NCBI GenBank assembly: GCA_018064445.1 | Contig: JAGHVE010000161.1 | Span: 1-39,863 of the forward strand | Origin: Candidatus Cacconaster equifaecalis | Lineage (GTDB): Bacteria > Bacteroidota > Bacteroidia > Bacteroidales > UBA932 | Direction: 5' to 3' | DNA: 39,863 nt | Part shown: piece after piece, positions 499-11,395 of the stretch | Position numbering within the stretch: the first letter of the stretch is position 1 | Layout of the letters: each line of letters opens with the position of its first letter | Notes under the pieces: model-generated | The model's database searches: none | What the model saw: only the letters and a program-made list of their open reading frames with translations | What the model was told of the DNA's origin: nothing | Position numbers and translations under genes: made by a program

Positions 499-515
499 GT
501 GATTCCACAGGGACT
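499..515. repeat. attL: 17-bp direct repeat of the tRNA-Arg 3' end (GTGATTCCACAGGGACT)
   Basis: Exact match to 11321-11337, with an integrase gene immediately inside. Confidence 0.9.
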
Positions 516-611
516 AAAACTCCATAACCCTGCAATTACATTTATTAAACAAAATAGGCAAAAATCGCTGTTTTACTGCGTTTTTGTATAGTGTATTTAT
601 TTGTGTTTTCA

Positions 612-643
612 TTTGGTATAATAGAAAAAAGTGTGTACTTTTG
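612..643 (+). promoter_or_regulatory. Bacteroidota-type promoter for the integrase (TTTG-N20-TACTTTTG)
   Basis: TTTG 612-615, 20-nt spacer, TACTTTTG 636-643, upstream of ATG 693. Confidence 0.65.
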
Positions 644-651
644 TTTTTAGG

Positions 652-676
652 AATACACACAAAAATACACACAAAA
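652..676. repeat. Tandem 12-bp-spaced repeats AATACACACAAAA x2 beside attL
   Basis: Copies at 652-664 and 664-676 between the integrase promoter and its start codon. Confidence 0.7.
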
Positions 677-692
677 TTTCAATTGTTCAATT

Positions 693-2063
693 ATGAAGGT
701 ACAATTCTATTTAGCACCCAAGGTGCATAATGACGGAGAAGCACCGATTCGTGTCTCCGTATCGGTTCACGGAACACGATTATTAACGACTTGCGGAGAA
801 TCTGTCAAACCAGAGTTCTGGGATGATGCAGCAAAGAAGGCTAAATTCCCCAAGGGTGGCACAAATTCACACGGCCTGACGGATAAACAACTCAATGCAC
901 TTCTTCACAAAATCGAAGCGGATTTTGATTCGTATGAGGCCGGACTGCAAGGAGGTTACAAGCCGACCATCGAAGAACTGCGTGACAAGTTGGCTGAATC
1001 CACAGGCACCGGGCGGAAGAAGATTGACAGCAAGAGAGAGAAGGCCGAAAAGATTGCATTAGCCAAGGAAAAGGAGATTCTTCGATTAAAGAGGGTAAGC
1101 GACTATTATCAGAAGTTCTTCACAGAATCGAGCGTCAAGAAGTCGTGGAGTGATGGCACAATAAAGAAGATGGCGAGTTTCGGACAGAAACTTGCAGACT
1201 TCGATTCTTTGACAGATCTCAACAGCGAGGACGGAATAAAGAAGTTTCACGCGAAGTTAAAAGATAGTGGTCTTGCAAATCGCACAATTGAGAAGCAGTT
1301 CAAACTTCTGAAATGGTTTCTCCGTTGGTGCGAGGACAAAGGCTTTATTGATAAAGTCTGCAATTTTTGGCCGACCATTAAAATCGCCCCTAAAGATGTT
1401 ATATTCCTCACGCCCCAAGAACTGATGAAACTTTATTCGTTCCAGATTCCTGACAATGGTACAAAGGTGACACTACACACAGCCGAAGGTGTGGCTTACG
1501 AAAAGGTGGTCGAAGATGCGGGTGCGCTTGAAAGGGTGCGTGATGTTTTTTGCTTTTGTGCGTTCAGTTCCCTTCGATATAGTGATGTTGCAAAACTTCG
1601 GTATTCTGATATAGCCGAGGACGGAATCAAGGTCATTCAGGCAAAGACAGATAAACTTGTAAGAATCGAACTGAATCAGTATAGCAAGGCCATTCTGGAC
1701 AAATACGCAAACTTCAAAAATCCGTTTGGTCTTGCGCTGCCTGTCATTAGCAATCAAAAATATAACGCCTATTTGAAGCCTCTTTGTGAGTTGGCGGAAA
1801 TTAACACTCTTATCAGTCAAACATATTATCGAGCCGGTAAGAAGGTAACGGAGGTTCAACCCAAGTTCAGGCTTGTAGGGACGCACACAGCGCGAAGAAC
1901 ATTTGTTGTTAACGCTTTGAGTTCCGGCATCCCTGCCGAGGTTGTAATGCGATGGACAGGCCATTCTGATTTTCAGTCAATGAAGCCTTATGTCGGAATT
2001 TTGGATTCCGTGAAGGCAGCATCAATGCAGAAGTTTAATGATTTTCTGGAGGGCGAGAAATGA
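693..2063 (+). CDS. Tyrosine recombinase/integrase
   Basis: Catalytic motifs SSLRYSDVAKL (Arg), HTARRTF (HxxR), GHSDFQSMKPYVGI (GH...Y); adjacent to attL. Confidence 0.95.
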   Translation: MKVQFYLAPKVHNDGEAPIRVSVSVHGTRLLTTCGESVKPEFWDDAAKKAKFPKGGTNSHGLTDKQLNALLHKIEADFDSYEAGLQGGYKPTIEELRDKLAESTGTGRKKIDSKREKAEKIALAKEKEILRLKRVSDYYQKFFTESSVKKSWSDGTIKKMASFGQKLADFDSLTDLNSEDGIKKFHAKLKDSGLANRTIEKQFKLLKWFLRWCEDKGFIDKVCNFWPTIKIAPKDVIFLTPQELMKLYSFQIPDNGTKVTLHTAEGVAYEKVVEDAGALERVRDVFCFCAFSSLRYSDVAKLRYSDIAEDGIKVIQAKTDKLVRIELNQYSKAILDKYANFKNPFGLALPVISNQKYNAYLKPLCELAEINTLISQTYYRAGKKVTEVQPKFRLVGTHTARRTFVVNALSSGIPAEVVMRWTGHSDFQSMKPYVGILDSVKAASMQKFNDFLEGEK

Positions 2064-2815
2064 CACTACATATATTCAAATCCATCATAGCAGAAATTTA
2101 TTACTTCTGTGCTGACATTGAAGGGGAAAGAGTTCATATTCCTTATTTTAAGGAGAAAATGAAAGGGTTCACCGAAGTATTAGTCAGAGAATCCAAGGCC
2201 AAGGGGGCAAATCTTCAAGCAGACATTCAGGGGCAGAAGATGTCTCCATATCGTAGTGTTATAGGACAGAGACAGGACTTTAATTCGACACGGTCTTGGT
2301 TTGACGAGGTTAACACTCAAATTCGGGCGATATTAAAGGATTTGAGGGGTGGATGGTATAACTACAAGAGCGAGGACAGGGAGGCTCTAATTTTGGCTTT
2401 AGAAGCCGTAATGAAGCCTTGTAAAGATTTGTCCGAAATATGCACCAAGTCGTTTGATGGTAAGCCGAAGCCTACAACCGTCCGGCAGCTCATATCACAA
2501 ATTCCCGATGATAACAAGCGGGAGTGCGCATTGAAACTTGCAGAGGATTTTCGGAAAGCGGGGTTTCTGGATGAAGATTATTTGTTCACTATCAAAATTG
2601 GTGAAAAGCCTGAAAGGGGTGAGGTATCCAGACGAAATAAAATTGTTGGAGTACTTGGTCACGAATTAGGGAAAGTTTGCGGAAGTATAAAAAAAGTGGC
2701 GGACATTTGGGGGTATCCTGAAAAGAGCATAAATAGGGATTACCAAAAAGCCATCGAGGATATTACAACTCCAAAGATTCTTCGATTAAAATCGATTTTA
2801 GAGGAACACCGATAA
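2060..2815 (+). CDS. Hypothetical protein, translationally coupled (ATGA) to the integrase
   Basis: ORF of 251 aa whose ATG overlaps the integrase stop by 4 bp; element-like codon usage; family not recognised. Confidence 0.75.
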   Translation: MTLHIFKSIIAEIYYFCADIEGERVHIPYFKEKMKGFTEVLVRESKAKGANLQADIQGQKMSPYRSVIGQRQDFNSTRSWFDEVNTQIRAILKDLRGGWYNYKSEDREALILALEAVMKPCKDLSEICTKSFDGKPKPTTVRQLISQIPDDNKRECALKLAEDFRKAGFLDEDYLFTIKIGEKPERGEVSRRNKIVGVLGHELGKVCGSIKKVADIWGYPEKSINRDYQKAIEDITTPKILRLKSILEEHR

Positions 2816-2850
2816 ATTTAACAGAATTAGTCCAAAAAGGGATATTTACT

Positions 2851-2882
2851 AAAGGGGGTAGAAATTTTTCTACCCCTTTTTT
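2851..2882 (+). terminator. Rho-independent terminator-like hairpin
   Basis: GGGGTAGAAA / TTTCTACCCC followed by a T-run. Confidence 0.75.
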
Positions 2883-3020
2883 GTTGGTATTCTGTAAGTT
2901 ACAAAAGCCACAGGGGATATTTGAAGGAAAGCGGAATATCCCTTTGTAACCCATATCAATAGGCTATATCTTGCGGAAAATTTAACGCAAAAAGAATCAC
3001 AAGCAAAAACAAAAAACGAT

Positions 3021-3368
3021 ATGGCAACAACAAATTTTATTGCAACGATGACTGTCAGCGAATTTATTGACAGCCTCAACAAGGCGGGGTTGATTATATG
3101 CAAGGAGCCTCAACCCGAACCCAAAGAAAAGCCTTTGGATTTTTCGGACAGCAGCCGTTTTGGATGCGGACTTCAAGCAATTCAAAATCGGTATGGTGTC
3201 AGCGTTCTGACTGCACAGAGGTATAAGTCTGGGATTCTGTCCCCTGCGGTCTTTCAGGTTTGCCGAGGTGGTAAATTTTACATTGACTATGAGAAGGCGG
3301 ACAAAATCCTCAAGGAGAAAAAGCCAAAGATGTATGATAAAGAAAGACGCTCAACCGTTTCCGATTGA
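3021..3368 (+). CDS. DUF3853/AlpA-like helix-turn-helix DNA-binding protein (possible excisionase/regulator)
   Basis: FGCGLQAIQNRYGVSVLTAQRYKSGILSPAVFQVCRGGKFYIDYEKADKIL resembles MerR/AlpA-type HTH proteins of Bacteroidota elements. Confidence 0.65.
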   Translation: MATTNFIATMTVSEFIDSLNKAGLIICKEPQPEPKEKPLDFSDSSRFGCGLQAIQNRYGVSVLTAQRYKSGILSPAVFQVCRGGKFYIDYEKADKILKEKKPKMYDKERRSTVSD

Positions 3369-3372
3369 GCGT
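3346..3372. repeat. Perfect 9-bp inverted repeat overlapping the stop codon of the DUF3853-like gene
   Basis: GACGCTCAA ... TTGAGCGTC with a 9-nt loop and no clear U-tract. Confidence 0.6.
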
Positions 3373-3498
3373 CCCAAAGGATGGGGTTTGTGGATTGCTC
3401 CACTTTTTTCAATTGTTCATTGAATACACAATGACAAAGATAGCAAAAGTTCAGCAATCTACAAGCCGAGAATGTTTAACAATTAAAATTTTTCAGTT

Positions 3499-4116
3499 AT
3501 GAAAACCGAAATTCAAAAACAATTCGAGGCTGAAATCAAAGACAGACAGCCGGAAATCTCGCTGGAGTATGAGGAAATCTTCGGGGAACTTGAAGTCTGG
3601 ATTTGTGGCGGAAATTCCGCAGGACTTGTTCTTCGCGGTGGCATCGGTCAGGGTAAGACCACAATGCTTCGCGCAATTTGCAAAATTGTAAAGGCGTTCT
3701 GGACGGAGGAAAGGATATTGACTATCCGTCAGGAACTCCGAAACCCCAACATTAAAAGCATAAGAGCAGACGATTTGCTGCATATCGCACACACAGAGGG
3801 GCGCGAGGGTTTGTTCTATGGTGAACACGCCATCGGACAAGCCGGAGTCCTTTTCATTGATGATTTGGGCGGAGAGACGGAAACAGAGATTCGATTCGAG
3901 GGGTGGAATAAGTCTCACGAGGTATATATCCGGGAAACCATCAGACCGTTTGCGGAACTTCTGACAAGAAGATGTGACAACAATTTGCCGACACTTATTT
4001 CAACCCGGCTCGACAAAACCCAAATTATTGAGCGATACGGAGAGAGCGTTTTCGACAGGCTTTTCGGGAGTTGCAATTGGATTAATATGCAGTTTGTTGA
4101 AGGTGGTTACAGATAG
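3499..4116 (+). CDS. DnaC-like AAA ATPase (helicase loader)
   Basis: Walker A GGIGQGKTT, Walker B VLFIDDLGG, and C-terminal IIERYGESVFDRLFG...EGGYR as in DnaC-type loaders. Confidence 0.75.
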   Translation: MKTEIQKQFEAEIKDRQPEISLEYEEIFGELEVWICGGNSAGLVLRGGIGQGKTTMLRAICKIVKAFWTEERILTIRQELRNPNIKSIRADDLLHIAHTEGREGLFYGEHAIGQAGVLFIDDLGGETETEIRFEGWNKSHEVYIRETIRPFAELLTRRCDNNLPTLISTRLDKTQIIERYGESVFDRLFGSCNWINMQFVEGGYR

Positions 4117-4128
4117 GAGGGTGAAGTT

Positions 4129-5091
4129 ATGGCATCAGCAGAAATCATCAACGAAATTCAAGAGGCGATGGAGGCACCAAAGACGGAATGGAAGAAATCC
4201 CTTTTCGACTTTACGGCAACCATCAGTCAGCCAGAGCCGCTTCTTATGTGCGGAGGAACACGGGCGTTAAGTCGTGAAAATCTGTGTATCATCACAGGGA
4301 AACCGAAAGTTTGCAAAAGCACTTTTTTGTCAGCAGCGATGGCAGCCGGACTATCAGCGCGGAATATCTTGAATATGTCTTCACCAAGGCATCGTAAAAT
4401 CATATTAGCCGACACGGAACAAGCCCCATATCACCTCAAAAGCCAATGTGACAGGGTTTTTCGTCTGGCGGAAATCCGACAAGAATTGTCTGACAACTTC
4501 ACCGTTCTGGCACTTCGCCCTTTCACACCACAAGAAAGGTATTCGTTTGTAATGGATGCTATTGAGGAAATTCGCCCTGACATTGTGGCTATTGATGGCG
4601 TTTCAGACCTTCTTTGCGACAGTAACGACTTGAAGGAATCCGAAAACCTTGTTTCGGAACTTCTGGCCGCTTCAAGCAAATATGATTTGGGGGTTATCTC
4701 AATTCTGCACACAACACCCGGACAGAGCAAACTTCGCGGACATTTGGGGAGTTGTCTCGAAAGGAAGGCGGAATCAGTCGTTCTTCTGGAGAAAGAAGGT
4801 CGTGGAATATGTGTCAAGCCGAAGGAGTGTAGAAACCGAGCCTTCACGGAATTTCGGTTTACCCTCAACGATGAAGGAGATCCGGAATATGATTCACAGG
4901 ACGCAGACCTGACTGCACTCGATTGGCTTTTGGCGATAATGGAGAAGGGAAAGGAATATCGACACGGAGAACTCGTTTCGTTACTCATTGAGAAGGGCAT
5001 CCCAGAAGGTTCCGCGAAATCCGGCCTCAAAGCCGGAGAAAACCAGAAACGCATTTTGAGAGTTGGTAGAGGGATATATACACTTCCTTAA
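4129..5091 (+). CDS. RepA/AAA_25-like ATPase (replicative helicase-like)
   Basis: CIITGKPKVCKSTFLSA Walker A, IVAIDGVSDLL Walker B, VISILHTTPGQSKLRGHLGS. Confidence 0.75.
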   Translation: MASAEIINEIQEAMEAPKTEWKKSLFDFTATISQPEPLLMCGGTRALSRENLCIITGKPKVCKSTFLSAAMAAGLSARNILNMSSPRHRKIILADTEQAPYHLKSQCDRVFRLAEIRQELSDNFTVLALRPFTPQERYSFVMDAIEEIRPDIVAIDGVSDLLCDSNDLKESENLVSELLAASSKYDLGVISILHTTPGQSKLRGHLGSCLERKAESVVLLEKEGRGICVKPKECRNRAFTEFRFTLNDEGDPEYDSQDADLTALDWLLAIMEKGKEYRHGELVSLLIEKGIPEGSAKSGLKAGENQKRILRVGRGIYTLP

Positions 5092-5341
5092 ATAGTTGGT
5101 TTAACACGCCCCCCTATATAGGGGGCGGCGTTGATAAACATATATAGATGTTTTTCTATATATAGTACCAACCGACAAACCAACTTTTGTAAATGATTGA
5201 AATTCAACAAGATGGCAACTTGGAAAAAATGCGACCAACTTTTTCGCCAACTTTTTTAACGCGCTGATTATCAATAACATAAGTTTTTACAAAAATTTCA
5301 CCAACTTTTTAACCAACTTTTAACCAACTAACTTTTGAAAA
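5092..5341. repeat. Iteron-like (A)ACCAACTTTT repeat cluster with palindromes; candidate replication origin
   Basis: ACCAACTTTT-like copies near 5177, 5234, 5246, 5300, 5312 and 5323, inverted copy AGTTGGTT at 5094; CCCCCTATATAGGGGG palindrome near 5110-5125; AT-rich CTATATATAG. Confidence 0.7.
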
Positions 5342-6370
5342 ATGGACACCGAAGCAACAATGAGAGCAATTGAAAGCGCAGTCTTTTATAATCCAGAGAC
5401 CGCCACAGGGATTCCGGGTTGGCAGAGGTATGGTGACAGGATGCAGACAAGATTCCGTCCTGATGGCACCGATTCAGGGAGGGCCGACAAGGTTACACTT
5501 CGATTCCGTCCTGAAGGTCTGTATTTGTCATACAACGGAGGTTCATATTGTTCAACTTATATTCGTTCCCTTCTGAAAAAGCGATTCGGTGAAGAATGGA
5601 TTAACACCGTCAAAGGGTTGTATAACATTGACACGGCCTTTACTGAATACTGCGAAGCATATTACAAGCAGCGCACAGAGGGGACGCGCAAGGCAACTGA
5701 TGAAAGGAATCCTGACACCATCCCGGAGAATATAATTGTTCCTACTTACGACACCAACAGACAGGACACCTTGAGGGATTATCTTTCAAGCGTATTCGGA
5801 AAGGATGCAGTCCTTCGGGCGTGGGAACTTTACGGAGTGGGGACAAACATTGAGGCGTGGACTATCTTCTGGCTTTACGACAAAGAAGGCAGATGTCGCG
5901 GGGGAAAGCGGATGATGTATCTTCCAGACGGACACAGGAGCAAAGGCAAAAACGGCATTGTGGCCTGTCATAGTGATTTGATAAAATACGGCAAACTTCC
6001 GAAGGAGTGGAAGTTCAGTTCTTGTTTGTTCGGGGAGCATCTTTTGAAACAATATCCCGAAAAGGTTGTCGGGGTTGTGGAATCCGAAAAGACAGCGATA
6101 ATTTGCTCCATCGTTTATCCGTCAAGTATCTGGATTGCAACAGCGGGACAGAAAATCAACCTCGATAGGGTGAAGTCTGTCCTTCGTGGGCGAAAGGTTG
6201 TTTTGTTTCCTGACGCTGATAGTATTAAGATATGGCAGGAGAAGTTCGATTCGGTTCCGGGATTCACCGTAAACACCATAACTCACGACTACTTCCGCAA
6301 AAAAGGCGAAAATTGGGCGAAATGCGACATCGCGGACATTCTGATACATAATTTATCGTCCAAAGGCTGA
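5342..6370 (+). CDS. DUF6371/Toprim-like primase
   Basis: VVGVVESEKTAIICSIVYPSSIWIATAGQKINLDRVKSVLRGRKVVLFPDAD resembles a Toprim domain (ESEKTA...PDAD). Confidence 0.7.
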   Translation: MDTEATMRAIESAVFYNPETATGIPGWQRYGDRMQTRFRPDGTDSGRADKVTLRFRPEGLYLSYNGGSYCSTYIRSLLKKRFGEEWINTVKGLYNIDTAFTEYCEAYYKQRTEGTRKATDERNPDTIPENIIVPTYDTNRQDTLRDYLSSVFGKDAVLRAWELYGVGTNIEAWTIFWLYDKEGRCRGGKRMMYLPDGHRSKGKNGIVACHSDLIKYGKLPKEWKFSSCLFGEHLLKQYPEKVVGVVESEKTAIICSIVYPSSIWIATAGQKINLDRVKSVLRGRKVVLFPDADSIKIWQEKFDSVPGFTVNTITHDYFRKKGENWAKCDIADILIHNLSSKG

Positions 6371-6429
6371 AAACGCCTAAAATCGGCTTTAAAATCGCAA
6401 ACAAAGATATATAAATTAAAACTTCAATT

Positions 6430-6657
6430 ATGATTACAAAACCAACTGTTTTTAAACCCATTGGGGAGCCGTTCAAACGGCAGGGTACAATGCTTGTCGC
6501 AATCAAGCGGCCAGATGTTCTTCCCCGTGATGCTTGCAAGGGATGCTTCTTCGTAAGAGCCTGTAATGATTCAAACTCTTTGGCCTGTTCGAGTTTCGAC
6601 AGATACGACAAGACTTCCGTCTGGTTCGTTGAGGCTAAAGACGCAAAACAAAAGTAA
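6430..6657 (+). CDS. Small Cys-containing protein
   Basis: 75-aa ORF with CKGCFFVRACNDSNSLACSSFDR; own ribosome-binding context; typical of small proteins in Bacteroidota elements. Confidence 0.6.
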   Translation: MITKPTVFKPIGEPFKRQGTMLVAIKRPDVLPRDACKGCFFVRACNDSNSLACSSFDRYDKTSVWFVEAKDAKQK

Positions 6658-6678
6658 CACACTCAAACACAATTTATT

Positions 6679-6990
6679 ATGAAAACACAAATTGACATTA
6701 GCGCAACAAGTGAATTTCGCAAAGGCGAAGCCACTTTTGCCCGGATTGCTGTCAATCCGAAAACAGGGGTTCAGGCGTGGAGAAGAAACTACATCTTCCA
6801 ACCTTCCCTCGACAGAATCGAAATGATTATCCCGGTGGCGGGTAAGTATTACCCGGAACAAGGTAAGGTGATGCGATCCTTCCCTGACGATGCAAAAGGC
6901 AGAGAGAGGATGGAACACTACCTCGAACACGGATTGCAGGGATGGTTCCCCGGTGATGAGCCTGAAAACCCCCTCGAAGAAGAAGATTAA
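6679..6990 (+). CDS. Hypothetical protein
   Basis: 103-aa ORF in the same operon-like array. Confidence 0.65.
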   Translation: MKTQIDISATSEFRKGEATFARIAVNPKTGVQAWRRNYIFQPSLDRIEMIIPVAGKYYPEQGKVMRSFPDDAKGRERMEHYLEHGLQGWFPGDEPENPLEEED

Positions 6991-7027
6991 CATTCAACTT
7001 ATTTATTAATCTCAAAATCAAAGTATT

Positions 7028-7750
7028 ATGGATAGTGAAATCTTTGAAGCCTTACAGGCTCCCGGCACTTTTGAAAAGACCGACAAGGGCAAAGTGCTTG
7101 TTAAAACCGCTATGATTCAACTTGTTAGAAGCAAGTGTGAATCACTCGACAACCTCCTTGCAAGTATTCCCCAGACACTTGCAAGGTATGAATTGGCTGA
7201 TTACGCGACTGAAGGCGTACAGCGTGAAATCCTGACCGATGGGGCATCAGCCGTTGTTTCCGAAGTAATGAGACGCACCCGGATTGAACTTCGGAAATCT
7301 GGTCTGTTCCCTGCCTTGGTTGAGGAACTCGCAAGACGAAACGCTGACTGCATCAGCCGGAACTTCAGAGACGAAATCAAGAATCTTTGTGACGGTATCA
7401 GGTCGCTTCGTCAATGGCTTTCAGGCCTTGGTATCGTAATCGGGGATGATGATAATTCCCTTTGGTTCAAGAGTGGCAAACTTCGGATTGCTCCGAAGAT
7501 TCTCGAAGGAATCGCCCCTCGGTTCACCATCCCTGTCGGAGACAAGGACTTGAAACTTGTGAAGAAGTTGCGAGAGGTCGCTGACCTTCTGAAAGACATT
7601 CAGAGCGAAGGTATCACCGTTCTGGACACGCAGAGACAGCAGGGGGCAGCAGGGTTGATGATGATTCAGCGCAGCATAGTCTCCCAGATGGTTGAGGCGA
7701 AACTGACAGACGAGGCTGTTCTGACGGAGATAATGAGACAAAGGCGATAA
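7028..7750 (+). CDS. Hypothetical protein
   Basis: 240-aa ORF followed by a strong terminator; no family recognised. Confidence 0.75.
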   Translation: MDSEIFEALQAPGTFEKTDKGKVLVKTAMIQLVRSKCESLDNLLASIPQTLARYELADYATEGVQREILTDGASAVVSEVMRRTRIELRKSGLFPALVEELARRNADCISRNFRDEIKNLCDGIRSLRQWLSGLGIVIGDDDNSLWFKSGKLRIAPKILEGIAPRFTIPVGDKDLKLVKKLREVADLLKDIQSEGITVLDTQRQQGAAGLMMIQRSIVSQMVEAKLTDEAVLTEIMRQRR

Positions 7751-7768
7751 CCTCCGTTCTATCAATGA

Positions 7769-7800
7769 AATAGCAACCCCGCAAAGGTTGCTATTTTTTT
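7769..7800 (+). terminator. Rho-independent terminator
   Basis: AATAGCAACC-CCGCAAA-GGTTGCTATT followed by TTTTT. Confidence 0.9.
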
Positions 7801-7815
7801 GAGGTTCAAGAGTTA

Positions 7816-8200
7816 TTTACACTATTGTTTATACTATTTTTTAACCTTGTAACGCATTGATATACAACAGAAAGGTATTTTTCAAAAGTGTGTTTTTTTT
7901 CGTCAAAAGTGTGTTTTTGGTCTATCCCCATCGCGCACACGCGCGTGAAAACCCTCACGAAATAACAACTCTACCTATCCTTCAAAATCCCTATCCCTCA
8001 ATCACTTGCAACCCATCAACCCTGCATAATATCCACCACGACACCCACCACAACCAGACATAAAATCAAATAATTTACACTATTTTCTTCCGCATTATTC
8101 AACAAATGGCAACAGGAGTTTTCCATCCCTGCCCCTGACAATGAAACCCTTACAGAATCCTTGGCAACAAAGGGAAACTTTTGTTTCCGTAACGCATTGA
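7816..8200. repeat. Non-coding region with duplicated repeat pairs
   Basis: TTTACACTATT at 7816-7826 and 8074-8084; GTAACGCATTGA at 7849-7860 and 8189-8200; TCAAAAGTGTGTTTTT at 7882-7897 and 7903-7918. Confidence 0.7.
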
Positions 8201-8227
8201 GTTACAAGCAATTAAATGAAATTTTTA

Positions 8228-8260
8228 TTTGGAAATATGGTTCCTTATGCCGTATCTTTG
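8228..8260 (+). promoter_or_regulatory. Bacteroidota-type promoter (TTTG-N21-TATCTTTG)
   Basis: TTTG 8228-8231, TATCTTTG 8253-8260, upstream of ATG 8290. Confidence 0.65.
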
Positions 8261-8289
8261 CAGTCGTAAACAAATAAAAACATTGTGCT

Positions 8290-8466
8290 ATGAACAAAGA
8301 GGAATTATTCAAAAAAATCACGGAAATTCAGGACATTATCGTAAGTCTTTACGACAGCGTGAAAACCCCTGTCAATTGTGAGGAGTTATTGATGGCTGCA
8401 AGTGCATTAGTGACCGTCAAAAATGACATAGAAGCCTATTATCGTTTCGTTCCTGAAGGAGTATAG
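8290..8466 (+). CDS. 58-aa hypothetical helical protein
   Basis: MNKEELFKKITEIQDIIVSLYDSVKTPVNCEELLMAASALVTVKNDIEAYYRFVPEGV; below the ORF-track cutoff but has an upstream promoter motif and is followed 4 nt later by the next ORF. Confidence 0.6.
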   Translation: MNKEELFKKITEIQDIIVSLYDSVKTPVNCEELLMAASALVTVKNDIEAYYRFVPEGV

Positions 8467-8470
8467 GCGT

Positions 8471-8701
8471 ATGGAAAAAGAGGAACTGAAGGACACCATC
8501 CCACACGACAGGGCAAAGGATTATCTTATCGTCCTTCTGGAGGCACAGAAGGTTATCACGCAGTTTGCCAACGGATATAAAGCAGCCGATGTGAAGTTTG
8601 ATAGTGGCGAAGCAATCGTCCTTCTTGACGGACTGAATGATATTCGGGCATTTATCGAAGAAGTCACTAAAACCTCGGAAATTGAACTTTTATATTCGTG
8701 A
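8471..8701 (+). CDS. 76-aa hypothetical protein
   Basis: ORF MEKEELKDTIPHDRAKDYLIVLLEAQ..., tightly spaced after the previous small ORF. Confidence 0.6.
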   Translation: MEKEELKDTIPHDRAKDYLIVLLEAQKVITQFANGYKAADVKFDSGEAIVLLDGLNDIRAFIEEVTKTSEIELLYS

Positions 8702-8708
8702 AAGTCAT

Positions 8709-8798
8709 TATCTTTGCCTTCAGAATATGAGTGGTTGATTCTGCCGTGCGGTTTTGTCTTTAAAGCCGACTATTCAGGAATGAATGGCCGGCTTTTTC
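8709..8798 (+). ncRNA. Candidate short transcript unit S1: TATCTTTG + GNRA-loop terminator hairpin
   Basis: TATCTTTG 8709-8716; hairpin AAAGCCGACTATTCA-GGAA-TGAATGGCCGGCTTT (8762-8795) followed by TT; no ORF between. Confidence 0.45.
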
Positions 8799-8820
8799 TT
8801 GGTTGGTGATGGTTCCCGGA

Positions 8821-9261
8821 TTAAATGGGACTATTTTCACTCATTTTTGTTGAGGCTGACATTGTAATCACAGAATTGTTTCCCTTTGAAAGTTTAATGA
8901 CTTCCTGTAAGTATCTGGAACTGGCATATTCGCTTCCGTCTTTCAATGTTCCGTGTATTTCATATTTGACAACAGCCTTTATTGCGCTATCATTGGCCGT
9001 AAAGGTCTTTTCTTGCCCGACTTGTGGATTCTCCCATCGCTTCTGGTCTATCTTGTTGTTATTAGCATCGTATTCGTAAAAGAAAAGAGTTTCCGTCAAG
9101 TGTGCATCATAGGACAATTTTTGTGCTACAACATCGCGGGCGGAATAGCCGTAATAAAGAGAATAGGTTGAGACTTCCTTCTGTTCCATCGGGGTTTCCC
9201 CTTCCTTTGAACACCCGAAGGCGAGAATCGCAACAATGGCGAGAAATAAGATTTTTTTCAT
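8821..9261 (-). CDS. Putative lipoprotein
   Basis: MKKILFLAIVAILAFGCSKEGETP: signal peptide with lipobox-like AFGC; start taken at 9261 rather than the 9438 given in the track. Confidence 0.75.
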   Translation of the reverse strand: MKKILFLAIVAILAFGCSKEGETPMEQKEVSTYSLYYGYSARDVVAQKLSYDAHLTETLFFYEYDANNNKIDQKRWENPQVGQEKTFTANDSAIKAVVKYEIHGTLKDGSEYASSRYLQEVIKLSKGNNSVITMSASTKMSENSPI

Positions 9262-9313
9262 AATGCAAATGTTTTGTAAATGGTTAATAATAAGTGTGTT
9301 ATGTATAAAAATC

Positions 9314-9507
9314 AAAAAAAGCGTGGGTTTTCTTTGTCGCTGATAGAGGTTTTGGCGAAACCCTGACCACGATACAAAGTAAAACCCACGCAGAGCGCAG
9401 GCATTACAACTTGGATCCCCGGTCTTAAAAATCGCCAAATTCCTATCAGGAGATAAAGCCTAATGCTGTATGTCTTGCGCCTGTTCTGGAGGCGCATAGC
9501 AAAATTA
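9314..9507 (-). ncRNA. Candidate structured pseudoknotted RNA (~180 nt) with -7 element and terminator
   Basis: Minus strand: TAATTTTG (9507-9500), 5' hairpin TGCGCCT-N7-AGGCGCA, pairing 9449-9432 with 9358-9340, terminator stem 9391-9374 / 9337-9321, then TTTTTTT. Confidence 0.6.
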
Positions 9508-9563
9508 AGGAAAAGAACTTCAATTTTAAAAAAAAGATTTGATGGTGACGGATAAAATATCAC

Positions 9564-9660
9564 TATCTTTGCCATTGAATCGTTCATCGATTTCTCATAT
9601 TCATAAATGTGCCCGCATTATGCCGGATATTCAGAAATGGATATTCGGCATTTTGTTTTT
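9564..9660 (+). ncRNA. Candidate short transcript unit S2: TATCTTTG + GNRA-loop terminator hairpin
   Basis: TTTG 9538-9541, TATCTTTG 9564-9571; 14-bp hairpin ATGCCGGATATTCA-GAAA-TGGATATTCGGCAT (9620-9651) followed by TTTGTTTTT. Confidence 0.5.
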
Positions 9661-9764
9661 GTCGGTTATAAAATTGGCTTTCAATCACTTACAAGAAGTC
9701 TGTTTATCCTATGAAAATAGGATAATGCAAGTATTTGTATATCAGGCAGTTAGAGAAAATTTTT

Positions 9765-9796
9765 CTTGCATATATGGAATAGCCTCCGTAACTTTG
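9765..9796 (+). promoter_or_regulatory. Promoter of the M41-like gene pair (CTTG-N20-TAACTTTG)
   Basis: CTTG 9765-9768, TAACTTTG 9789-9796, ATG 9818; preceded by the perfect inverted repeat TTATCCTA-N6-TAGGATAA at 9704-9725. Confidence 0.6.
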
Positions 9797-9817
9797 CAGA
9801 AGTAAAATATCAAAATT

Positions 9818-10336
9818 ATGAGAAGTAATAATTATCAGTCCGCCATCCACGAAGCGGCATACCTTTTCGCAAGGTACATTCTATTTAAAAACCTCAACAC
9901 TATTGAGAGCGTCAGTATCTGGAGAAGAAAGGCGCATATCAACTTTGATGCGGATGCGCAACTAAAAGAGTTTCATAAGAGCCGAAACAGGGCGTATGCA
10001 GTAAAGGACTATTGCTGTGACCTTGCCGGAGAGTTTGCAGATGTTTTTGCGGATGAGGACTATCCAAAAAATTGGGAAAATGTCAACGAGGCTAAAAGAC
10101 ATATTACTGAAATGCTCGACCTTTATACTGAAAGAGAGGAAGTCAACAGCCTTGCGGACGAGATTGAGGAACTTGCAAACAATTTCGTTGGTGAGAACTT
10201 CAACACTATTCAATGTATTGCGGATGAGTTGGCAAAAATGTTTAGCGGAACATTGTACCGGAAAGATATTGAGAAAAGATTGGATTGGTGGTTATATGAG
10301 TGCCGTAATGCCATCTATATCCCGAAATTGAATTGA
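9818..10336 (+). CDS. Degenerate M41/FtsH-peptidase-domain-like protein (HEAAY)
   Basis: SAIHEAAYLFARYILF aligns by eye with the M41 HEAGH helix, with the second His replaced by Tyr; C-terminal helices NEAKRHITEMLDLYTEREEVNSLADEIEELANN are M41-like. Confidence 0.6.
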   Translation: MRSNNYQSAIHEAAYLFARYILFKNLNTIESVSIWRRKAHINFDADAQLKEFHKSRNRAYAVKDYCCDLAGEFADVFADEDYPKNWENVNEAKRHITEMLDLYTEREEVNSLADEIEELANNFVGENFNTIQCIADELAKMFSGTLYRKDIEKRLDWWLYECRNAIYIPKLN

Positions 10337-10362
10337 TTTGTAACAGAGATAGGAAAGGGAGT

Positions 10363-10875
10363 ATGAAGATAGGCTTTGAGGAACTGAAGGCTACAATTGC
10401 TCACGAATGGGGGCATTGTCTTATGTATCACCTTCTGGGATATGGAAGATATGTTGAGGACATCGAAATAGAAGCAAACATATCCGGGTTATTCGGTCGC
10501 ACAAGAGTAAACCTTCTTTATGCGGACTGTATCGACATAAATAATCCCGTTGTTCACCTTGTCAATATCCCTGCTCCTGATAACCTTGTGATATTGTATG
10601 CCGGAGTGATTGCGGAAGGAAACCACAAAGGACAAAAGATAAATATCAGCAATACCGATGCGGAAAGAGCCAAAGCATTAGAGCAAAGTAAACGAAAACG
10701 GAGCGAGGCGAGAAAAAGGGCATCAGACCTTCTGGCACCATATTCCGGGGATATTTCAAAACTCGTTGAATTAACACTAAAGAAGGAAGCATATCAGGGG
10801 GAAATCAATTATCTTAAGTTCTACGATAGAATTTTTGCATACGAGGTACGGCAATACCTGAAGGGGATAATCTGA
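10363..10875 (+). CDS. M41/FtsH-peptidase-like zinc metallopeptidase-domain protein (HEWGH), no AAA domain
   Basis: TIAHEWGHCLMYHLLGYG HExxH; VILYAGVIAEGNHKGQKINISNTDAERA resembles M41 AGxxAE...D..xA. ATG 10363 preferred over the TTG 10333 of the track. Confidence 0.65.
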   Translation: MKIGFEELKATIAHEWGHCLMYHLLGYGRYVEDIEIEANISGLFGRTRVNLLYADCIDINNPVVHLVNIPAPDNLVILYAGVIAEGNHKGQKINISNTDAERAKALEQSKRKRSEARKRASDLLAPYSGDISKLVELTLKKEAYQGEINYLKFYDRIFAYEVRQYLKGII

Positions 10876-10931
10876 AAAATTCAAAAAAAAAAATTTTTAG
10901 TGCCTGTAATGGGGGTTGACTTCATTATGAT

Positions 10932-10963
10932 ATAGGGGGGGGGTATGCCCCCTCTATTGTTTT
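10932..10963 (+). terminator. Terminator-like hairpin with a G9 tract
   Basis: ATAGGGGGG / CCCCCTCTAT with loop GGTATG followed by TGTTTT. Confidence 0.6.
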
Positions 10964-10999
10964 CCGTCACCCTTCTGTTCCATTCCGTCACCCTTCTGT
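10962..10999. repeat. 17-bp direct repeats, 21-bp period (TTCCGTCACCCTTCTGT x2)
   Basis: Exact copies at 10962-10978 and 10983-10999. Confidence 0.85.
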
Positions 11000-11067
11000 C
11001 ATGAGTTTTCAGATTCTTCCGGGTACATTCCGACATACATTTTCGCGGAAGTCATTGATTGATAGGG

Positions 11068-11317
11068 TTTTCTTTTATCCGTCCCTATATGGGAAGTTTC
11101 ACCCCAAAGCCACTTCTGGAGCATCAGGGAAGATTCCGATGATATGCTTTCCGACATTGATAGTCTGTCATTCCGTCTCAATCCGTCCGAGGTGACAGAG
11201 AAGGAGCCGGAGTGTGTAACTTTTGCCCCTTTGAGGTTCAAAAAGTGTGCATTAAATCTGTGTACTTTTGGAAATAAAAAATGCAAAAGACTGAAAATCA
11301 GTTCTTTTGCAAAGTGA
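11068..11317 (+). pseudogene. Possible relic 3' coding fragment near attR
   Basis: Frame ending at TGA 11315-11317 reads ...FWSIREDSDDMLSDIDSLSFRLNPSEVTEKEPECVTFAPLRFKKCALNLCTFGNKKCKRLKISSFAK*, protein-like composition but interrupted upstream by TGA TAG near 11062. Confidence 0.25.
11271..11311 (-). terminator. Terminator downstream of tRNA-Arg, located inside the element
   Basis: Minus strand TGCAAAAGAACTGA-TTT-TCAGTCTTTTGCA followed by TTTTTTATTT. Confidence 0.75.
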
Positions 11318-11320
11318 ATT

Positions 11321-11337
11321 GTGATTCCACAGGGACT
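11321..11337. repeat. attR: 17-bp direct repeat inside the tRNA 3' end
   Basis: Exact copy of 499-515. Confidence 0.9.
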
Positions 11338-11395
11338 CGAACCCTGAACCTACAGATTAGAAATCTGTTGCTCTATCCAGTTGAGCTATGGAACC
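11322..11395 (-). tRNA. tRNA-Arg (anticodon TCT), CCA not encoded
   Basis: GGTTCCATAGCTCAACTGGATAGAGCAACAGATTTCTAATCTGTAGGTTCAGGGTTCGAGTCCCTGTGGAATCA; stems pair and loop TTTCTAA gives TCT. Confidence 0.95.

Follow-up and report, generated by a model that had tools for sequence, protein, structure and literature searches.

Members of the Bacteroidota are major inhabitants of the human gut, and, to our knowledge, few regulatory RNA classes are known in this phylum. Among the described systems, the small RNA FopS carries a 5' single-stranded seed stretch (R1) and a terminator, acts in trans, and has a structure deposited in Rfam (PMC11697453). Flavo-1 (RF01705) is a widespread Bacteroidetes motif that sometimes lies in leaders (PMC9723704). 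HMP2_4205 is a 132-bp palindromic Bacteroidetes candidate with a predicted intrinsic terminator (Fremin and Bhatt 2021, PMC8040213); that study assigns it no mechanism and places the candidate near TPR genes.

The window considered here is a 39,863-nucleotide stretch of Candidatus Cacconaster equifaecalis (contig JAGHVE010000161.1). On its minus strand lies an RNA that quite probably serves as 5' leader to the gene downstream and belongs to a family, spread across the phylum and not previously described, of conditional terminators that act in cis.

The RNA in the window and the element that carries it

The features of the locus are listed below, those of the RNA as read from the sequence and with what is known of each in the family.

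9475-9314, minus strand: the RNA family member
9507-9500, minus strand: -7-like promoter element TAATTTTG
9496-9490 with 9482-9476, minus strand: 5' hairpin TGCGCCT/AGGCGCA
9466-9461 with 9406-9401, minus strand: helix D, 5' strand GCATTA; GCRUU/AAYGC is recurrent in the family
9454-9450 with 9419-9415, minus strand: possible helix F, from pairing in 98 sequences
9449-9432 with 9358-9340, minus strand: helix B, both parts, CTGATAGGAATTTGGCGA with TCGCCAAAACCTCTATCAG, 7 + 8 bp around a GAA/ACCT internal loop
9449-9443 with 9346-9340, minus strand: helix B2, CTGATAG/CTATCAG, from covariation
9442-9440, minus strand: GAA, 5' side of the internal loop, AA invariant
9350-9347, minus strand: ACCT, facing side of the internal loop, near-invariant
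9439-9432 with 9358-9351, minus strand: helix B1, TTTGGCGA/TCGCCAAA, from covariation
9362-9360 with 9350-9348, minus strand: hairpin GGT/ACC, with the B1 3' strand in its loop
9424-9421 with 9368-9365, minus strand: helix C1, GACC/GGTC, from covariation across the family; the register in the window copy is our own pairing and differs from the covariance-model alignment
9413-9410 with 9379-9375, minus strand: helix C2, CAAG/CTTTG with one bulge, AAUAAG/CUUAUU in homologues
9402-9396 with 9390-9384, minus strand: hairpin E (putative antiterminator), 5' strand GCCTGCG, a conserved pairing
9390-9385, minus strand: shared strand CGTGGG, serving E as its 3' side and terminator A as its 5' side, able to pair with both
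9391-9374 with 9337-9321, minus strand: terminator A, GCGTGGGTTTTACTTTGT/ACAAAGAAAACCCACGC, 17 bp with one bulged A
9320-9314, minus strand: terminator U-run, seven T
8821-9261, minus strand: 146-aa lipoprotein-like ORF (MKKILFLAIVAILAFGCSKE...), from the ORF listing
499-11342, no strand assigned: integrated mobile element of about 10.8 kb carrying the RNA, from att-like repeats and an integrase
693-2063: tyrosine integrase, within the integrated element

The first-pass annotation had placed TAATTTTG, the 5' hairpin and the arms of B and A, and all of them lie where it put them. Its pairing of 15 of about 18 positions in B corresponds to the 7 + 8 bp around the internal loop and is backed by covariation; its 17-bp stem and U-run are likewise found, and the lipoprotein start codon that it put at about 50 nt lies at 9261, 52 nt from the U-run end. 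The 7-bp hairpin is present at its coordinates but is private to the window copy, without a counterpart in the homologues. The 194-nt RNA folds more stably than 200 of 200 dinucleotide shuffles (z -3.4).

The att-like direct repeats are 22 nt long and 91% identical (499-520 and 11321-11342), the second lying at a tRNA 3' end, and they bracket the RNA in keeping with its earlier label as element cargo. The 146-aa lipoprotein-like gene matched no known family. BLASTN with the window RNA found no copy in the 20 same-genus genomes listed, which fits arrival of the RNA with the element, BLASTN being insensitive here.

A diverged family and its spread

BLASTN over 395 Bacteroidales genomes returned weak matches of which most were chance and five were real diverged relatives, with 70-75% identity over part of the RNA. 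The window RNA gave no BLASTN match in phage and plasmid collections, and two sequence patterns searched in viral contigs gave none. The sequence is too diverged for such searches, and only a covariance model uncovers the family. Such a model, built from six sequences (the window copy and the five relatives), matched 163 of the 395 Bacteroidales species genomes and 35 of 300 genomes sampled over the whole phylum. The blastn search of Bacteroidota that had been proposed at first pass yielded homologues, and the covariance model extended the family beyond the scope of that proposal, in which the size of the family, helices C1, C2 and D/F, and the GGY/RCC hairpin had gone unnoticed.

Copy number varies, with 26, 19, 8, 6, 3, and 1 copies in six genomes scored more fully and one copy in the genome of the window. 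A gapped DNA pattern marked at least 118 stretches in species genomes; among the pattern loci listed, most of those in species genomes and three of three in viral contigs were confirmed by the covariance model. Confirmed carriers include Flavobacterium, Pedobacter, Leeuwenhoekiella, Segatella copri, Chitinophagales, and Fibrobacter MAGs, and BLASTN with other members matched plasmid records of Chryseobacterium, Rhizosphaericola, Phocaeicola, and Parabacteroides. The three contigs listed as viral come from IMG/VR (L246, L247, and L248) and may be phages or misassigned elements.

Contigs often end at the RNA or close to it, a pattern that similar copies could produce by breaking assemblies; this is seen in many short contigs and in copies L065 and L108-L121 of genome G361. 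In the same genome, several copies stand upstream of BspA-like LRR genes that are paralogous and alike at their 5' ends. A group II intron domain 5 (L003:1915-1989, minus strand) is found upstream of the RNA in one homologue, at a distance of about 250 nt.

Covarying scaffold and competing stems

Covariation was assessed by a tree-aware G-test with average-product correction, in which the null was generated by re-placing column changes on a FastTree tree, on an alignment of 98 sequences with less than 90% identity. The alignment behind most counts was fitted to the structure of the model, and two checks used MAFFT alignments. The test returned 17 column pairs at E<0.05, all in B2, B1, or C1 and 94-100% paired. 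Six of the seven B2 pairs are significant, with 96-100% pairing and up to six pair types; B1 has six significant pairs, and C1 has five, 94-100% paired across the family. Because the first alignment had been fitted to the model, the test was repeated on 87 sequences aligned by MAFFT without regard to structure, where 12 pairs pass, all in B2 or in B1 with its one-pair extension. Cells changed on both sides number 837, against 238 in shuffles, and the signal collapses when columns are slid by 1-3. In the first MAFFT alignment, of six sequences, both partners had changed in 17 of 34 pairs, a count reached by none of 500 shuffles, and the signal was lost once partners were slid. Covariation proves that the B helix is real.

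In alignment A4, 588 of 588 B1 cells are Watson-Crick, with zero G-U and zero mismatches, and the other helices differ in this respect; such a helix suggests a strict geometric constraint, for example a kissing or tertiary contact. The small GGY/RCC hairpin around the B1 3' strand is present in 97 of 98 sequences. In the internal loop between B2 and B1, positions 9441 and 9440 are A in 98 of 98 sequences, and the ACCU opposite GAA is 96-100% identical in the same number. The B2 arms themselves are diverse: the 15 paralogues of one genome have 14 distinct B2 5' arms, which pair with their own partners at 0.98 and with those of the others at 0.60.

The terminator behaves differently from the scaffold. 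Covariation in both helices had been proposed as a check at first pass; B covaries, but A, which crosses B2, B1, and C1, is conserved and nearly invariant. A further property of A had been missed, namely that its 5' strand is an equally conserved partner of an upstream strand, with which it forms hairpin E. The strand CGUGGG pairs backwards with GCYYACG (E) and forwards with CCCACG (A). In 98 diverged sequences, the seven pairs of E are 92-100% paired and the core pairs of A are 87-100% paired, while the shared strand is 94-98% identical at every position; a run of at least four T residues is found in 94 of 98 homologues. Since CGUGGG is common to both, E and A are mutually exclusive, in the manner of a transcription attenuator: a terminator and an antiterminator share a strand, both are conserved, and a U-run is present. 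Being conserved rather than covarying, E and A rest on conservation and a bias towards G-U, with 160 G-U against 1 A-C cells in E and 62 against 2 in A. This excess argues that the structure acts as RNA on the minus strand.

Other helices overlap these stems. C2 is 85-98% paired in homologues and competes with the inner part of A. Helix D, with five pairs at 53-86% in the 98 sequences, overlaps E and is hence an alternative to it; helix F is 59-86% paired with several pair types and alone is not significant. In copies L111, L113, L115, L117, and L119 of G361, GGGACUU occurs about 40-60 nt past the terminator, and its pairing with AAGUCCC in the terminator 3' strand is a possible further alternative stem in this subset.

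Nested folding of the homologues favors the antiterminated form by a median of 7.2 kcal/mol, a rough value in which the crossing state is not scored; as nested folding cannot score B, C1, and A together, these energies are one-sided. Of 95 transcripts truncated 10 nt ahead of the A 3' strand, 91 are predicted to form E and all 95 to form B2. The unconstrained minimum-energy fold of the window copy contains A, unlike that of most homologues, on account of its 17-bp A stem.

An improbable alternative is a static pseudoknot, in which B, C1, and A would form together as a constitutive attenuator or as a processing or stability element that does not switch. This is the topology proposed in the first-pass annotation, which is partly supported: B covaries, and the conserved terminator stem A would cross it. 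With linkers of 12-14 nt, as estimated by us from column spacing, A could coexist sterically with B and C1. It leaves unexplained, however, why GCYYACG and CGUGGG pair at 92-100% with frequent G-U exchange; with E and A as alternatives, the word pseudoknot covers at most one of two states.

Gene context, proposed mechanism, and known systems

The RNA holds a similar position relative to genes at most loci. At about 120 of them, the end of the model is followed by a same-strand ORF at a median of 56 nt (IQR 47-87); no ORF of at least 60 aa lies within 250 nt at 22 of about 140 loci, some of which are contig ends. In database plasmid records, the annotated CDS begins 42 nt (Chryseobacterium sp. 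JJR-5R) and 57 nt (Parabacteroides distasonis) past the match. The Bacteroidota -7 motif TAnnTTTG occurs upstream of the RNA, no more than 110 nt away, at 45 of 69 loci, and the 60-nt spacer holds it at 2 of 70, the shuffle expectation being about 9% in 130 nt. By motif and position, then, the RNA has the features of a cis-regulatory leader: a close same-strand gene, a promoter motif upstream, and almost none between. Of the two roles initially offered, free sRNA or conditional-terminator leader, it is the leader that this context upholds.

A free sRNA acting in trans, about 160-190 nt long, with its own terminator and preceding genes by chance, is accordingly an unlikely account. The promoter-like motif and intrinsic terminator would suit it, and Bacteroides does have multicopy sRNA families, FopS among them (PMC11697453), yet the like spacing at about 120 loci, the near-absence of the motif from the spacer, the pairing of the hypervariable arms within their own molecule (B2 own 0.99 versus cross 0.53), and the lack of an obvious conserved single-stranded seed all stand against it. 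An attC-like recombination site, folded as single-stranded DNA and moving accessory genes as cassettes, would account for a long imperfect hairpin, for accessory genes downstream (surface proteins, restriction-modification, LytTR), and for copies carried by plasmids and a mobile element, but is rejected as highly improbable on the G-U excess over A-C of 222 to 3 in E and A, which points to RNA, with the promoter motif and U-run of the copies and their place before the gene, whereas attC sites come after theirs, also against it.

The genes behind the leader are diverse. Signal-like N-termini, called by a simple hydrophobicity rule of our own, are present in 90 of 118 downstream proteins, against 220 of 654 other ORFs of the same loci, an enrichment for exported proteins. 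In a Pfam search of 100 downstream proteins, no family exceeded four occurrences (BspA-type LRR 4, LytTR 4, VWA 3, GmrSD and type III restriction-modification one each), and across the first 21 loci no protein family recurred downstream as often as three times. The downstream genes are mutually unrelated, with no common function that would name a signal. Inspection by eye for a leader peptide showed no start codon at a constant place. Small LytTR-like regulators lie downstream of the RNA in several genomes, including Segatella copri, at loci L041, L042, L137, and L172; a link of these regulators to a signalling pathway is possible.

The best reading of the RNA is an orphan riboswitch-like or protein-sensing conditional-terminator leader, here within a tRNA-integrated element. 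Transcription would start upstream of the RNA, and the upstream strands of B2, B1, and C1, as their covariation indicates, would pair with downstream strands inside the span of the terminator stem to form a scaffold. If CGUGGG pairs backwards with GCYYACG, in E extended by C2, the terminator 3' strand would be left free and transcription would read through; if it pairs forwards with CCCACG, terminator A would form ahead of the U-run and transcription would stop. What tips the balance may be a signal that the scaffold senses, with the invariant AA/ACCU loop beside B1 as a conceivable site. While the conservation of both pairings is observed, switching between them is the proposal, and we infer that termination occurs, that it is regulated, and in which direction. 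We lean weakly towards a leader that would be ON by default and switched off, since the nested model favors read-through in most homologues. As a ligand, c-di-GMP is unlikely because GGDEF is far rarer than the RNA across Bacteroidales genomes (19 of 395 versus 163 of 395).

The genes preceded by the RNA include those for surface lipoproteins, BspA-like repeat proteins, LytTR regulators, and restriction-modification. A broader proposal, which we put forward tentatively, is a riboswitch-like class general to the Bacteroidota, through which one second messenger or RNA-binding protein might control up to dozens of accessory and surface genes per cell; it would travel on mobile elements as a finished unit of promoter and switch, each copy keeping its own pairing arms so that copies do not cross-pair. 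Once found, the signal would open a regulon common to the whole phylum and provide a switch that can be tested in isolates from the gut and the environment.

The absence of the RNA from Rfam, left open at first pass, was checked by cmscan of the window and a dozen homologue loci against Rfam 15, which placed no family over the RNA; the tested members differ in this from Flavo-1 (RF01705). Text searches of the literature for a published description returned just the HMP2_4205 candidate (PMC8040213) and other families. By its published description, HMP2_4205 fits the RNA in length and character; part of the family may already have been detected there without being named. Novelty is claimed for the family with respect to Rfam 15 and the literature searched. 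The FopS and GibS sRNAs (PMC11697453) are likewise multicopy in Bacteroidales, with a promoter and an intrinsic terminator; the RNA falls outside that group, having a structured 5' part and no Rfam match, although the FopS structure is deposited there. In the HMP-PP/thiS riboswitch (PMC6478431), the terminator stem appears to be part of the sensing structure, a likeness by idea only, and its gene association appears to differ from that of the RNA. From transcription-terminating riboswitches and protein-sensed attenuators the RNA differs in that its downstream genes are mutually unrelated, in its occurrence in the Bacteroidota and a few Fibrobacter MAGs, and in matching nothing in Rfam 15. It shares with them the place in a 5' leader, the complex conserved fold, the gene shortly downstream, a terminator and an antiterminator with a common strand, and invariant internal-loop nucleotides.
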